Positions 33,253 to 53,985 of a stretch of DNA of 64,000 nucleotides are shown in pieces. Source of the DNA: Bacillota bacterium (GTDB taxonomy: Bacteria > Bacillota > Sulfobacillia > JACIYH01). Position numbers and translations under genes: made by a program. Where the stretch lies: the NCBI GenBank assembly GCA_030019365.1, contig JASEFA010000007.1, positions 1-64,000 of the forward strand, read 5' to 3'. The notes under the pieces were generated by a model. That model searched no databases. It was not told where the DNA came from and was given only the letters and a program-made list of their open reading frames with translations. The stretch's first letter is position 1. Each line of letters starts with the position of its first letter.

Positions 33253-34263
33253 TCAAGATCGGACCGCTGTCGGCATGCCACCCCGGACCTCCGAGGTGGG
33301 CAGCCTTGCTGCCAGTTGCACAGCGAGATGCTCCAAGGCCGCCCGTGCCGCCCCCGAGGGAAGGCCGTCCAGGTGGGAGCGCGCATTGCGCAGCAACCCC
33401 GTGGCGGCGTCGGCGGCGCGGTCCAGGCCGCCCGACATCGCCACCAGGCGGCAGGCTTCGGCCACCCGGTCATCACCTTCGCCGTTGAGGCTGGCGAGTA
33501 AGCGGCGCAGCCCAGGCCCGCACGCAGGGTGATCCAGGGCACAGATCACGGGCAGGGTGATGACCCCGCGCCGCAGGTCCAGGCGCACCGGCTTTCCCAT
33601 GGTCGCCGTCTCGGCGGTGAAGTCGAGCACGTCATCTATTACCTGAAAGGCGCAGCCCAGGTAGAGCCCGTAGCGGTGGAGGCAGTCCTGCCAGGGCTCC
33701 GGCAGCCCGGCTACCTGCGCTCCCGCCCTCGCACAGGCGGCCATCAGGGCCCCGGTCTTGTTCGCCGCCCGCTCCAGGTACTCGCCGGCGGTTACGGCCA
33801 GATCGCCGCGACGGGCGCGCTGGTCCAGTTCCCCCTCGCACATCCGGGCAATGGCTGCCGTGAGGGTGGCCACCACCCCGAAATGAGCGTGGCGGGCGAG
33901 CAGGCCGAAGGCGCGGGAGAACAGGAAATCACCCACCAGGGTAGCGGCCCCCTCCCCGTGCAGCACGTGGAGGGCGGCCTGACCCCGCCTGTGGGCTGCC
34001 CCGTCCAGGATGTCGTCGTGCACCAGGGACGCCAGGTGGATCAACTCGGCCGCCACGGCCACGTCCCTCACCGCGGTGGGCGGCGCATCACCGAACGAAG
34101 CAGCAAGATGGACGAGCAGGGGACGCAGCCTCTTGCCGGAGGCACCCATGAGGTGTCCCACCGCCGCTGCCACCGCCGGGCTGGAGCTCCGCAAGGCCTC
34201 CCGCATGGCTGCCTCGAAGTCGGGCGTGATCGGCCGTCCCTCCCCGCCTAGGTTGGCGAACAC
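33253..34263 (-). CDS. Polyprenyl diphosphate synthase (HepT/IspB-like)
   Basis: 336 residues of the trans-isoprenyl diphosphate synthase family. GKRLRPLLVHLAA binds IPP. The first Asp-rich motif is in HLASLVHDDILDGAAHRRGQ (DDxxD) and the second in FQVIDDVLDFTAETATMGKP (DDxxD). The residue upstream of the first motif (ASLVHDDILD, small side chains) suggests a long-chain product. It condenses IPP units onto an allylic diphosphate at the membrane surface. It is divergent from the terpene synthase gene with only 24 bases between the chosen starts (GTG 34263 and ATG 34288), so at least one start may be further in. It may supply the C35 or similar precursor for YtpB. Confidence 0.9.
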   Translation of the reverse strand: MFANLGGEGRPITPDFEAAMREALRSSSPAVAAAVGHLMGASGKRLRPLLVHLAASFGDAPPTAVRDVAVAAELIHLASLVHDDILDGAAHRRGQAALHVLHGEGAATLVGDFLFSRAFGLLARHAHFGVVATLTAAIARMCEGELDQRARRGDLAVTAGEYLERAANKTGALMAACARAGAQVAGLPEPWQDCLHRYGLYLGCAFQVIDDVLDFTAETATMGKPVRLDLRRGVITLPVICALDHPACGPGLRRLLASLNGEGDDRVAEACRLVAMSGGLDRAADAATGLLRNARSHLDGLPSGAARAALEHLAVQLAARLPTSEVRGGMPTAVRS

Positions 34264-34287
34264 CGGGGGAGACTATCCGGGGCCCGG

Positions 34288-35442
34288 ATGGGGGAAACAT
34301 CGTTGCGCCACTGGCTTCTGGTATCTGATCTGATGTATCGGGCCTTCCCGGCGGTGGACAGACGACTGGCACGCTATCTGGAGCTGGCGGGCGACCGGGG
34401 CATCCGGCGTCAGGACGGCATCCAGGCCCGCCTGAGCATCCTGACCAAGCGATTCCACTGCCAGGGCGGGGCCGCCTTCGCCTGCCTGAGCCCAGCACGG
34501 CAGGCGCTGCTCGATGCCATCGTGGCCCTGCAGACCATGTCCGACTATCTCGACAACCTGTGCGACCGCCGGCATCCGCCGGAGGAATCACGCTTCCGCA
34601 TGTTGCACGGCGCCATGCGGGCGGCGGTGGCGCCCGGCCCGTCCGGTTCGCACCCTCCGTGGCTGGCACAGGATCGGCTTCTCTCCACTCTGGTGGCCGA
34701 TTGCCATCGCGCCCTCACCGCCCTGCCATCCCACCCGGTGATCCACCCCGAAGTGAGCCGGCTGGTGAACCTCTACTGCGACCTGCAATCATACAAACAC
34801 CTGCCCCCGGGCCAGCGCGAGTCCGCCCTGGTGAGGTGGCAGGCCCGGCAGCAAGGGGAAAAGGACCCGGTGGGGCAGGCCGCCCGGGACCTGTCCTGCC
34901 ACGAGTTTGCGGCCGCCTGTGGGTCCACCCTGGGGATTTTCGCCCTGTTCCGCCTGGCAGCCCAGCCGCGGCTCACCCGCGACCGCGCCGGGGCGGTAGT
35001 GCAGGCTTACTTTCCCCACATCTGCGGCCTGCACATCCTGCTCGATTACCTCATCGACATGGACGAGGACCGGGCCAGCGGCGACCTCAACTTCGTTCTC
35101 CCTTACGGTAGCCGCGACTCAGCCCGCGCCCGGCTGATCCACTTCGTCCGCCGGGCCCTGGAGAAGGCCGGCACCCTTCCGGACGCCTGGTTCCACCGCC
35201 TCGTGGTGAAAGGGCTGCTGGCCATGTACCTCTCCGATCCCAAGCTCGGAGCGCAGGAGCTCGAGGGATTCGCCACCAACCTCCTGCGGGCCGCGGGGCC
35301 TCCGGCGGCAGGCCTGTGGCGTCTCTGCCTGAGGCTGCGCCGCCGCGGGATTATACCCCCGAACTCCTGGCAACCGGTCGCCAGGGACCCGAAGGCGGGA
35401 ACAACTTCGGGGAGCTTCGACGAATGGAAAAGTGGGACGTGA
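34288..35442 (+). CDS. ytpB: YtpB-like class IB terpene synthase (DUF2600; tetraprenyl-beta-curcumene synthase type)
   Basis: 384 residues. MSDYLDNLCDRRHPPEESRF is the first Mg-binding motif of DUF2600 proteins, and HILLDYLIDMDEDRASGDLN is the second Asp-rich motif. Arg- and Lys-containing segments between them (SCHEFAAACGSTLGIFALFR) are also typical. In Bacillus subtilis, YtpB cyclises tetra/heptaprenyl diphosphate to C35 terpenes without DDxxD class I motifs. Here it is next to a polyprenyl synthase and overlaps a flavin reductase by 19 bases, so a C30-C35 lipid made and modified locally is inferred. ATG 34333 (MYRAFPAVDRRL) is an alternative start close to the conserved region. Confidence 0.87.
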   Translation: MGETSLRHWLLVSDLMYRAFPAVDRRLARYLELAGDRGIRRQDGIQARLSILTKRFHCQGGAAFACLSPARQALLDAIVALQTMSDYLDNLCDRRHPPEESRFRMLHGAMRAAVAPGPSGSHPPWLAQDRLLSTLVADCHRALTALPSHPVIHPEVSRLVNLYCDLQSYKHLPPGQRESALVRWQARQQGEKDPVGQAARDLSCHEFAAACGSTLGIFALFRLAAQPRLTRDRAGAVVQAYFPHICGLHILLDYLIDMDEDRASGDLNFVLPYGSRDSARARLIHFVRRALEKAGTLPDAWFHRLVVKGLLAMYLSDPKLGAQELEGFATNLLRAAGPPAAGLWRLCLRLRRRGIIPPNSWQPVARDPKAGTTSGSFDEWKSGT

Positions 35443-36677
35443 TCGTGATCGGGGGCGGACCGGCCGGGTCCCAGGCCGCGTACGAGTGTGCCTCCCGCGG
35501 CATGCGCACCCTGCTCGTGGACCGGAACCGCTTCCCCCGGGAAAAGCCCTGCGGAGGAGGGGTTTCCCTGGCCGCCGAGAACCTGCTGGGCGAGTGCCTG
35601 CCCGCCCGGGTGGCCGAGGTCCGCTGCCGTCTTCTGCGCACCGTCCACCGGGGGTGGAAGAGGGAATTGGACTATCCCCATCCGTTCCTGGCCTCCGTGC
35701 GGCGGACCATTTTCGATCAGTGTCTCGTCGAGCGTGCCATAGCCGCCGGAGCAGAGGTGCGTGACGGCCTGGAGGCCGAATGGATCGATGCCCGGGCCGG
35801 TCATACCCAGATACAGCTGCGCACCACCGACCCGTCCCCTCCGCAACGCGAGAACGGGGCAACGGGGCGAATGGAAGTGCGGAGGCCAGCCCAAACGTCT
35901 TCCTGCGTAGCAACCATCGTAGCAGACGGCGTGGCGGGCAGGGTCTCCCGGGCTCTCCGGGGGCGCTGGCGTCCCGGGGCCCTGGCTCTCTGCTACACTG
36001 CCGAGGCCGAATGGGACGGGCACGCTGACGACCCCTACCGGCAGGAAGGCATAGAGGTCCACTACGCCTTCGTCCCCATGGGTTACGGCTGGCTGTTCCC
36101 CAAGCGCAACTCCATATACGCTGGACTGGGCGCACACCTGCCCGCGGCAGGCGGGCTGAGGCACGCCTTCACCGAGTTCGCCCGGCTGAACCGCCTCCGC
36201 TTCTGTTCCCCGGTCCGTACCGCCCTCGTCCCAGTGGGAGGCGTGGCCCTGAAGGTGGCGGGTGACGGCTGGCTCCTGGCGGGCGACGCGGCCGGTCTGG
36301 CCGATCCCTTCAGCGGGGAAGGCATCCGCTATGCCCTGAGCTCGGGGCGGCTGGCCGGTCAGGCGCTTGCCGCCTGCCTGGAGCAGGGCATGCCACCCAC
36401 GGCTGCCGCTCTAGCCGCCTATTCTCGCTCTCTGCGCACGGCTTTCGGAACCCACCTGGCCCTTGCCAGGCTCATGTTCACCCTGCTCCACCGCTTCCCG
36501 CGGGCTCTGCTTGCCATCTACTTCTGCCACGACGAACCCTTCCGGCGGACTCTGGACATACTGGCCGGTCGCGCCGCCTACGCCGACCTCCTGCGATGGA
36601 TTCTGCCTCGCCTCCCCCTGCTCGCCCTTGTCGGCCCTGCACCCCCCACCGGTGCGGGCCGGCACCCGACGTCCTGA
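35424..36677 (+). CDS. Geranylgeranyl reductase family flavoprotein
   Basis: 417 residues. MEKWDVIVIGGGPAGSQAAYECASRG is the FAD dinucleotide-binding motif. DRNRFPREKPCGGGVS is the signature of geranylgeranyl reductases, with the CG motif. GWLLAGDAAGLADPFSGEGI is the second FAD motif. It reduces isolated double bonds of polyprenyl chains, or oxidises related lipids. ATG 35424 lies nine bases after GGGGAG, inside the end of the ytpB gene, so the two are coupled. A stretch at about 140-170 (SPPQRENGATGRMEVRRP) looks like a flexible insertion. Saturation of the YtpB terpene or of the polyprenyl precursor is a reasonable inference. Confidence 0.88.
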   Translation: MEKWDVIVIGGGPAGSQAAYECASRGMRTLLVDRNRFPREKPCGGGVSLAAENLLGECLPARVAEVRCRLLRTVHRGWKRELDYPHPFLASVRRTIFDQCLVERAIAAGAEVRDGLEAEWIDARAGHTQIQLRTTDPSPPQRENGATGRMEVRRPAQTSSCVATIVADGVAGRVSRALRGRWRPGALALCYTAEAEWDGHADDPYRQEGIEVHYAFVPMGYGWLFPKRNSIYAGLGAHLPAAGGLRHAFTEFARLNRLRFCSPVRTALVPVGGVALKVAGDGWLLAGDAAGLADPFSGEGIRYALSSGRLAGQALAACLEQGMPPTAAALAAYSRSLRTAFGTHLALARLMFTLLHRFPRALLAIYFCHDEPFRRTLDILAGRAAYADLLRWILPRLPLLALVGPAPPTGAGRHPTS

Positions 36678-36698: not shown

Positions 36699-36728
36699 TT
36701 GACAAGGCAACCGACAGATCACTATACT
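36699..36728 (+). promoter_or_regulatory. SigA promoter of the selenoprotein gene
   Basis: TTGACA (36699-36704), 18-base spacer, TATACT (36723-36728). The expected start point, about 36735, leaves only about 20 bases of leader before GTG 36757, just enough for the AAGGAGGT site (36743-36750). Confidence 0.85.
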
Positions 36729-36756
36729 GGAGGAAACGATACAAGGAGGTACGGAA

Positions 36757-37038
36757 GTGCGGGTTGATATAACCCCGGACGCGATGAGCTTCCTCAAATC
36801 ACGCACCGACGCCGTCACCGTCCTCATGGAGATGTGCGCCGGCTGAGGGGGCGTGTCATATGAGCCTGCCGTGTATGCAGGTGCCCCCCAGGATGTCCAC
36901 AAGTATCAGGAGTTCCAGGTCGACGGTCTGAAGGTCTATCTGGCCAAAGATGCCCGCGTTGCGCGCGACGGAGTCAAGATCTCACTGTGGGGCATTGGCC
37001 CCTGGAAGCGCATACTGGTCGACGGGCTGCTCAGGTAA
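36757..37038 (+). CDS. HesB-like selenoprotein with in-frame UGA (Sec at residue 30)
   Basis: The reading frame starts at GTG 36757, six bases after a strong AAGGAGGT, and runs to TAA at 37036-37038 with a single in-frame TGA at 36844-36846. Read as selenocysteine, the protein has 93 residues. It starts MRVDITPDAMSFLKSRTDAV and continues EMCAG-U-GGVSYEPAVYAG, then VDGLKVYLAKDARV and GVKISLWGIG. The ITPDAMSFL opening and the metal-ligand-like C-x-x-U-G region fit the small HesB/IscA-related selenoprotein group, where Sec replaces the first cluster-binding Cys. A two-tier hairpin starts directly after the TGA (see bSECIS). HesB relatives act in Fe-S assembly or transfer; the selenoprotein branch is uncharacterised. 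The DUF302 gene follows after 45 bases. A chance nonsense mutation is the alternative. Confidence 0.82.
36847..36888 (+). promoter_or_regulatory. Candidate bacterial SECIS element
   Basis: Directly after the TGA, GGGGGC (36847-36852) can pair with GCCCCC (36883-36888). Inside it CCTGC (36865-36869) pairs with GCAGG (36877-36881) around a 7-base loop CGTGTAT. The apical loop has G in its second position, as SelB-binding loops usually do, and lies about 24 bases from the UGA. Confidence 0.7.
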
Positions 37039-37083: not shown

Positions 37084-37473
37084 GTGGGATACCCCTTCGC
37101 TTACACCGTCTGTACCCCGAAGGCGTTCGACGATGCTGTGGCTGTCGTCGAGCGGAAGGTGGCCGAGAAAGGCATGCGGGTCCAGCACGTCCACGACGTG
37201 CAGGCCACCCTCGCCAGCAAGGGCTACCAGATCAAACCCTTGAAGATCATTGAGGTTTGCGATGCGCCCCACGCCCACGCCGTGCTCAGCAAGGACGTCA
37301 TGATCTCCCTCATGATGCCGTGTAAGATCAACGTCTTCGTGCGCGACGGCACCACATGGATAACTGCCCTGCGGCCAACCGTGCTGGCCCAGTTCTTCCC
37401 GGGAGCAGGACTCGACACCGTCGCCCGCGAGGTCGACGCCATACTTGTGAGCATCGTCGACGAAGCGGCATAG
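37084..37473 (+). CDS. DUF302 domain protein
   Basis: 129 residues. FAYTVCTPKAFDDAVAVVER and KVAEKGMRVQHVHDVQATL are the DUF302 first half. KPLKIIEVCDAPHAHAVLS and MISLMMPCKINVFVRDG are the second; the conserved Cys in IxExCxP and in MxPCxxxVY are both present. DUF302 folds as a dimeric beta barrel and has no assigned activity, though some members relate to redox or heavy-metal stress. GTG 37084 is preceded by AGGGAGG. It is 45 bases after the selenoprotein gene and probably co-transcribed, so a shared role in metal or redox chemistry is possible. Confidence 0.88.
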   Translation: MGYPFAYTVCTPKAFDDAVAVVERKVAEKGMRVQHVHDVQATLASKGYQIKPLKIIEVCDAPHAHAVLSKDVMISLMMPCKINVFVRDGTTWITALRPTVLAQFFPGAGLDTVAREVDAILVSIVDEAA

Positions 37474-37575: not shown

Positions 37576-37651
37576 GGGCCCGTAGCTCAATTGGCAGAGC
37601 ATCCGCCTCATAAGCGGGTGGTTGGGGGATCGTGCCCCTCCGGGCCCACCA
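37576..37651 (+). tRNA. tRNA with CAT anticodon (elongator Met most likely) and unusual T-loop
   Basis: The acceptor GGGCCCG/CGGGCCC pairs fully, so it is not an initiator. T8-A9 and the D arm GCTC-AATTGGCA-GAGC are present. The anticodon loop CTCATAA gives CAT. The T stem is GGGGG/CCCTC, with loop ATCGTGC instead of TTCRANN: positions 54 and 58 are A and T, the reverse of the universal T54-A58. CCA is encoded. tRNA-Ile2 (lysidine-modified CAT) is the alternative. Confidence 0.9.
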
Positions 37652-37652
37652 G

Positions 37653-37681
37653 TTGAAAACCGAAATCGACCGGCTTATAAT
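37653..37681 (+). promoter_or_regulatory. Promoter upstream of tRNA-Glu
   Basis: TTGAAA (37653-37658), 17-base spacer, TATAAT (37676-37681). It starts two bases after tRNA-Met, so tRNA-Glu and tRNA-Val can be transcribed separately. Confidence 0.7.
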
Positions 37682-37697
37682 GGAGGCTGTGTCGCAA

Positions 37698-37772
37698 GGC
37701 CCCATGGTCTAACGGTTAAGACACCGGCCTTTCAAGCCGGCAGCAGGGGTTCGACTCCCCTTGGGGCCACCA
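37698..37772 (+). tRNA. tRNA-Glu (TTC)
   Basis: The acceptor GGCCCCA pairs with TGGGGCC. The anticodon stem CCGGC/GCCGG carries loop CTTTCAA (anticodon TTC). The T loop is TTCGACT, and CCA is encoded at 37770-37772. Confidence 0.96.
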
Positions 37773-37781
37773 GGTTTGGGT

Positions 37782-37856
37782 GGGCGGCTAGCTCAGTGGC
37801 AGAGCGCTTGACTCACATTCAAGAGGTCGTAGGTTCGAGTCCTGCGCCGCCCACCA
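37782..37856 (+). tRNA. tRNA-Val (CAC)
   Basis: The acceptor GGGCGGC pairs with GCCGCCC. The anticodon stem CTTGA/TCAAG carries loop CTCACAT (anticodon CAC). The T loop is TTCGAGT, and CCA is encoded at 37854-37856. Confidence 0.96.
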
Positions 37857-38418: not shown

Positions 38419-39657
38419 CTACGCCGCGCACTCCAGATCCTGGAGGTCAACTTTGTAGCCGAGCGCTTCAAGCCTCTTGGTCAGGCGCCTGGCCACCGCC
38501 TCCCGGTCCAGCCTGTCAAAGTAGTCCGCGCCAAGGTCCCGGTACACCGTCTTGTCCCTGAGGATATGGTAGACAATGGTGAGAATGGCGTGCGCTACCG
38601 CAACGGCTGCCCTCTTCTTGCCTTTTCTGGCGGCGAGCCGGTGGTACAACGAAGAGAGGTAGTTACCCTTGGACCTGCCGGCAGCGTGGGCGGCTTGCAC
38701 GAGCAAAGATTTGAGCCATGGGTTCCCCTTGGTGGTCTTCCCGGATTTCCGCTTGCCGGCGGATTCGTTGTTCCCCGGGCACACCCCCGCCCAGGAGGCG
38801 ATGTGCCGGTCCGAAGGGAAGACAGTCATGTCCACACCGATCTCCGCAATTATGCCCTGGATAGCTTTCACGTCCAGGCCAGGCACGCCATCGAGCCTGC
38901 GCGCGTCAGCCTCAAAAGGGCGCATCCTCTCCTCGATTTCCCGGTCAAGCTCCGCAATGGCCTCGTCGAGGTAGTCGATATGAGCAAGGATCTGGGAGAT
39001 TATGAGCCGGTGATGCGGCTTCAGGAAGCCCTCCAGGGCCCTTTGCAGATCGGGGATCTTCTTCCTCATCCTGCCCCGTGCCAATTGTGCCATGGACTCG
39101 GCGTCCATCTCTCCCCGCAGAAGCTCGTGCAGGATCGCCCGCGCAGAGACCCCGGTGACATCAGTAGCCACGGACGCGAGCTTTATGTTGGCGTCCTCCA
39201 GGATCTTCTGGAGCCTGTTCACCTCGGAAGCCTTCTGGCGGGTCAGGCTGGTCCGGTACCTGGTCAGATCCCTCAGTTCCCGGATGGGCTCGGGGGGAAT
39301 GAAGCTTCCCCTGATCAGCCCGTGGCGGAGCAGATCGGCAATCCACTCCGCATCGGAGATGTCGGTCTTCCTGCCGGGGACGTTCTTTATGTGCGCCGCG
39401 TTCGCCAAAACTACCTCAAAGTTCGCCTCCAGGATGTTGTACACGGGTTTCCAATAGACCCCCGTGCTCTCCATGGCCACGTGAGTGCACCCGGCCCGGG
39501 AGAGCCAGTCCGAAAGCATGAGGATGTCCCTGGTCATCGTCCCGAAGGTCCGCGTTTCCTTCTTCGGCTTGCCGTCCGGGCCCGGTACAATAAGGCACGC
39601 GGTGATGACCTTCTTGTGGACGTCCAGGCCTGCGCACCGTTCGTGCATCACTTCCAT
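38419..39657 (-). CDS. IS110-family transposase (DEDD)
   Basis: 412 residues. The N-terminal RuvC-like domain begins CAGLDVHKKVITACL (first Asp), has HVAMESTGVYWKPVYN (Glu) and GRKTDISDAEWIADLL (the two later Asp). The C-terminal Transposase_20 domain has RLDGVPGLDVKAIQGIIAEIG, ASWAGVCPGNNESAGKRKSG and its catalytic Ser region. All DEDD residues appear present and the frame is intact, so the element may be active. It acts as an RNA-guided recombinase in studied IS110 members. The start is taken at 39657. Confidence 0.95.
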   Translation of the reverse strand: MEVMHERCAGLDVHKKVITACLIVPGPDGKPKKETRTFGTMTRDILMLSDWLSRAGCTHVAMESTGVYWKPVYNILEANFEVVLANAAHIKNVPGRKTDISDAEWIADLLRHGLIRGSFIPPEPIRELRDLTRYRTSLTRQKASEVNRLQKILEDANIKLASVATDVTGVSARAILHELLRGEMDAESMAQLARGRMRKKIPDLQRALEGFLKPHHRLIISQILAHIDYLDEAIAELDREIEERMRPFEADARRLDGVPGLDVKAIQGIIAEIGVDMTVFPSDRHIASWAGVCPGNNESAGKRKSGKTTKGNPWLKSLLVQAAHAAGRSKGNYLSSLYHRLAARKGKKRAAVAVAHAILTIVYHILRDKTVYRDLGADYFDRLDREAVARRLTKRLEALGYKVDLQDLECAA

Positions 39658-53786: not shown

Positions 53787-53794
53787 CCCAAGCG

Positions 53795-53985
53795 CCCCCC
53801 TTACCACGCTTACGAGGTTAGCTGTCGGGCTCGGGCCGAAGGAGCTAGCCCTACCCACCGGTACCGGGCACCTCACCGCCACCGGTCGGGATTCGCCCCC
53901 GAAGTTGGGTCCCCCGCTCTCCCCGCAGGGAGACTCAGCGCACCGGGCGGACTTCCACCTCAGTGGATGCCAGCCAGACGCACCT
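53795..53985 (-). promoter_or_regulatory. ydaO/yuaA-type c-di-AMP riboswitch
   Basis: On the minus strand the conserved blocks appear in order: GAGCGGGGGACCCA (near 53913), GGGGGCGAATCCCGACCGG (near 53890), GGTGGGTAGGGCTAGC (near 53855), and CCCGACAGCTAACCTCGTAA (53807-53826). These match the ydaO/yuaA consensus, including the GGGTxxATC-like joint and the GTCAGCTAACCTCGTAGGC-like end. Binding of c-di-AMP generally turns such genes off. It lies between a strong promoter and the ddl-like gene. Ends are approximate. Confidence 0.88.

Follow-up and report, generated by a model that had tools for sequence, protein, structure and literature searches.

A selenoprotein gene of the CC/Se motif family in a Sulfobacillia genome, with a conserved hairpin behind its in-frame UGA and a predicted IscA-like fold

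The gene at 36757-37038 (plus strand) of the window analysed here, a stretch of 64,000 nucleotides from a Bacillota (Sulfobacillia) genome, is a genuine selenoprotein gene and adds a member to a family that has already been described. It encodes a 93-residue protein of the CC/Se motif family (NF041239), and comparison with related sequences indicates, with a probability of roughly 95%, that the UGA at codon 30 is decoded as selenocysteine. Comparison shows the recoded frame, the position of the selenocysteine, the hairpin that follows it and the decoding machinery in the genome; from these we infer the insertion of selenocysteine itself.

The gene begins with GTG at 36757 and ends with TAA at 37036-37038. 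Its only internal stop is a TGA at 36844-36846, which is codon 30 of 93 and closes a Cys27-Ala-Gly-Sec30 motif (CxxU; 36835-36846, plus strand) identified from the sequence and the family alignment. The reading frame thus has the single interruption described in the first-pass annotation, although 63 sense codons, not 64, lie between the TGA and the TAA. Expression signals precede the frame, as had also been proposed. A sigma-70-like promoter on the plus strand (TTGACA, 18 nt, TATACT; 36699-36728) matches the consensus at 11 of 12 positions, where shuffled sequences would be expected to yield 0.3 such sites, and a Shine-Dalgarno sequence, AAGGAGG (36743-36749, plus strand), lies 7 nt ahead of the GTG.

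The only NCBIfam match of the protein, with selenocysteine written as cysteine, is NF041239, the ‘CC/Se motif family (seleno)protein’. The score of 95.6-96.8 bits lies well over the curated cut-off of 40 bits, and the match covers profile positions 1-91 of 91; a Pfam scan of the protein returned no match. All 35 aligned relatives match the same model, and in their alignment the Sec/Cys column of the CAGU motif (residues 27-30) is invariant. The gene had at first been taken to be unrecognised. This does not hold at the level of the family, because NF041239 is a curated NCBI model, and a review of selenoproteins in prokaryotes published in 2026 already includes it in its table 1 (PMC13188914), where it is given the motif CxxU and described as a ‘hypothetical protein predicted in Moorella thermoacetica’. 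With the described family the protein shares its full-length match over the cut-off, its size of about 91 residues, the CxxU motif and the occurrence of selenocysteine and cysteine variants at one position. Nothing essential sets it apart; identity is 28-54% to aligned members outside the genus and 76-80% within it.

A gene caller that reads UGA as a stop would report an ORF at 36853-37038, starting at a GTG at 36853. This would agree with a UGA that truly terminates translation, leaving a 29-residue upstream frame and a 61-residue downstream ORF as separate or decayed pieces. We regard this as very improbable, because the distribution of the codon argues against it. Each of the 8 relatives from the species genomes carries TGA at the corresponding codon, and two further genomes of the same genus do so as well. 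Many genera share this UGA, the frame is intact on both sides of it, and the protein is conserved at the level quoted above within the genus. Across the phylum, 90 of 398 genomes carry the family, 78 of them with a TGA-containing copy. A strong SelB match is present in 76 of these 78 (taking a best E-value of 1e-79 or better in place of the cut-off), compared with 263 of all 398 genomes over the cut-off (Fisher p about 3e-13). The two UGA-bearing genomes without a strong SelB match are G168, a draft that is about 90% complete, and G176, whose family match is partial and borderline.

The host genome itself (G000; 2.94 Mb, about 98% complete) encodes the selenocysteine pathway, the absence of which would have spoken against the selenoprotein reading. 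A search for selA, selB, selC and selD found selA (551 bits), selB (337 bits, or 368 including a second piece), selD (395 bits) and a tRNA-Sec with the anticodon TCA (UCA), which was also called by ARAGORN. The host selD (L048; G000:C11:19100-20020, minus strand) contains an in-frame TGA of its own, in the context AGUAAK. This fits the UxxK motif of selenocysteine-containing SelD (PMC13188914), suggesting that the host SelD is probably a selenoprotein too, which is a known arrangement.

The frame would be equally open if UGA were read as tryptophan or another residue, through a variant code or near-cognate readthrough. This appears even less probable than a true stop. TGA serves as the normal stop of the upstream gene, which ends at 36677, the genome holds tRNA-Sec(UCA) together with the whole selenocysteine pathway, and homologues lacking the UGA carry cysteine at the site, not tryptophan. 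Most of these non-TGA homologues have Cys at the Sec site, often as Cys-Cys, so that residue 30 aligns as selenocysteine or cysteine; a Sec/Cys position elsewhere would have contradicted the proposed assignment. Some variation at the motif was observed. Two loci (L077 in G045 and L078 in G115) have two adjacent in-frame TGA codons (Sec-Sec), and in two paralogues (L063 in G237 and L069 in G013; VGTAGGPA and IGTAGGPA) the Sec/Cys position has apparently been lost. Family matches with TAA or TAG in G383 were considered as another recoded codon. These stops sit where the match begins, at its N-terminal edge, and not at the Sec site, and therefore do not constitute evidence of recoding.

Selenocysteine decoding of UGA 30 would further be expected to leave a mark in the RNA downstream of the codon, where a two-tier hairpin had been proposed. 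The sequence does fold into this structure, with a minimum free energy of -24.4 kcal/mol, yet the z-score against shuffled sequences is only -1.5, so that folding energy alone is unconvincing. The case for the hairpin comes instead from comparison. We aligned 40 stretches without gaps, from the TGA to base 48. The upper stem, CCTGC/GCAGG with the loop CGTGTAT (36865-36881, plus strand), consists of 5 bp that join columns 22-26 to columns 34-38 (36865-36869 to 36877-36881). All 40 sequences pair at every position of this stem (200 of 200 cells), with compensatory changes from U-A to C-G and from G-C to A-U. For the whole structure, 88% of cells are paired, compared with 33-46% in slid controls. 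The lower tier of the proposal did not hold up in the same way. The GGGGGC/GCCCCC stem (helix 1 of the 12-pair structure) is paired in just 42.5% of cells and represents an extension specific to this window (36847-36888, plus strand), which folds here but is not conserved in relatives. An alternative lower register, columns 5-8 with 43-46, fares better, with 73.8% of cells paired. The pairs that hardly vary there coincide with Gly and Pro codons, however, and we do not count this register as shown.

Stem and loop of the upper hairpin overlap the codons for P-A-V-Y-A-G. Among selenocysteine-containing members the codons of the P-A-V-x-A segment are nearly fixed (CCT in 40/44, GCC in 36/36, GTG in 43/44, GCA in 31/32), whereas they vary in cysteine-containing members. 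The valine codon illustrates this best: GTG is used by 43 of 44 Sec members and by 2 of 12 Cys members, with a Fisher p of 2e-8 that overstates the independence of what are related sequences. This contrast at third positions, almost invariant in Sec members yet unconstrained in Cys members, suggests that selection acts on the RNA rather than on the protein. The hairpin CCUGC-CGUGUAU-GCAGG is thus very likely the SECIS, the putative SelB-binding element, given that it is paired in every aligned sequence, shows compensatory changes and has third positions frozen in Sec members only. An Rfam scan gave no match to a SECIS family, and a search of the host's own genome for copies of the hairpin found a mismatch-free one only in this gene. 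A covarying, conserved hairpin with codons frozen in UGA members alone is a further argument against a true stop.

What the recoded protein looks like was addressed by structure prediction. An AlphaFold model built with the 35-sequence alignment has a mean pLDDT of 92, and its best structural matches in the PDB are all of the IscA/SufA type (Foldseek E 1e-4; Z 9-10 over 84-87 residues, and 9.3-9.9 for the top chains), among them 1r94 with a Z of 9.9 and an rmsd of 2.7 over 85 residues. Searching PDB sequences with the profile of the family returned no match. In the hhalign alignment, Sec30 falls on the first cluster ligand of IscA from E. coli, Cys35; the IscA sequence was verified with 1s98. 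This supports the suggestion that the selenocysteine of the CAGU motif stands at the position of a cluster-ligating cysteine. At the profile level the protein resembles IscA proper only modestly, and the similarity ends at about residue 77-80. There is no cysteine past residue 30, so both C-terminal ligand cysteines of IscA are without a counterpart. Compared with IscA/SufA (PF01521), the protein therefore shares the predicted fold and the position of the first ligand cysteine, but lacks the C-terminal CxC and a match to the Pfam model, and has an extra cysteine three residues ahead of the selenocysteine. The host genome, at roughly 98% completeness, yielded no PF01521 (IscA/SufA/HesB) protein.

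The first-pass annotation had placed the product with small HesB/IscA-like selenoproteins and named TIGR01911 (HesB_rel_seleno) for comparison. The likeness stands for the fold and for the alignment of Sec30 with Cys35, and fails for the family. Membership of TIGR01911, together with a role as a classical A-type Fe-S carrier, would agree with the IscA fold and with selenocysteine at the first ligand position. Weak matches of 3 of the 35 family members to NF038090 (IscA_HesB_Se) lean the same way. TIGR01911 and the protein also have a similar size and remote profile similarity (hhalign E 9e-7). However, TIGR01911 (cut-off 66.35 bits) found no match in the genome or in the NCBIfam scan of the protein, and PF01521 did not match the protein either. 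The UxGP motif of TIGR01911 is not present here, where the sequence reads U-G-G-V within CAGUGG, and the C-terminal CxC is missing. Both NCBIfam and the review enter HesB-like TIGR01911 separately from the NF041239 family (PMC13188914). We consider it unlikely that the protein is a HesB_rel_seleno member and a classical carrier.

A gene for a DUF302 protein (37084-37473, plus strand; PF03625, 59 bits) follows on the same strand 45 bp downstream, and the two may be co-transcribed. It had been suggested that they form a selenium/Fe-S redox pair. DUF302 also directly follows the gene in L044, a locus from a different taxonomic family with a 65.6% identical protein. Another genome of the genus (L051) shows the arrangement too, though there the DUF302 matches are fragmented. 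These are the only such cases among the loci checked. In L009, L052 and the other loci, DUF302 was not found beside the gene and the neighbours vary, so it does not qualify as a conserved operon partner; linkage is sporadic, a general pairing finds no support, and a functional redox pair seems unlikely. On the other side, the geranylgeranyl-reductase-like upstream gene is retained within the genus. Its product (35424-36674) and a DUF2600 protein (34288-35439, 309 bits), encoded just upstream of the selenoprotein gene, are grouped with an ORF that resembles a polyprenyl synthase by eye, and the group (33253-36677) is likely a terpenoid gene group. Elsewhere in the window we noted three consecutive tRNA genes (Met, Glu, Val; 37576-37856) directly past the DUF302 gene, an IS110-like transposase ORF recognised by resemblance of its translation (38419-39657, minus strand) and a c-di-AMP riboswitch (53791-53950, minus strand; RF00379, 73.8 bits against a cut-off of 38).

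Taken together, both the machinery in the genome and the Sec/Cys alignment at residue 30 strongly support the selenoprotein reading. We propose that the hairpin, which starts 18 nt past the UGA and presents the loop CGUGUAU, would recruit SelB and Sec-tRNA(Sec), so that UGA 30 would be read as selenocysteine and translation would continue to the TAA. The product would then adopt the predicted HesB/IscA (A-type carrier) fold, with the Cys27-x-x-Sec30 pair at the site of the first cluster ligand of IscA. The pair suggests redox chemistry or metal binding. Because the C-terminal IscA ligands are missing and the pair occupies the first-ligand site, it is about an even chance that the product is a small selenol/thiol protein on an IscA-like scaffold, acting in selenenylsulfide redox chemistry or in the binding of a metal or other thiophilic ligand, rather than a classical Fe-S carrier. 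More tentatively, the SECIS CCUGCCGUGUAYGCAGG, near-unchanged across distant lineages, might form a class of its own, combined with an IscA fold that no longer carries Fe-S clusters and instead has a CxxSec site for redox chemistry or metal binding.

The finding is a gene-annotation catch, which leaves what is known of selenocysteine decoding unchanged. A correct gene model is useful here because callers that treat UGA as a stop readily truncate or miss such genes. Beyond the annotation, the assignment of an IscA fold and a hairpin backed by covariation sharpen what to test in an uncharacterised selenoprotein family.
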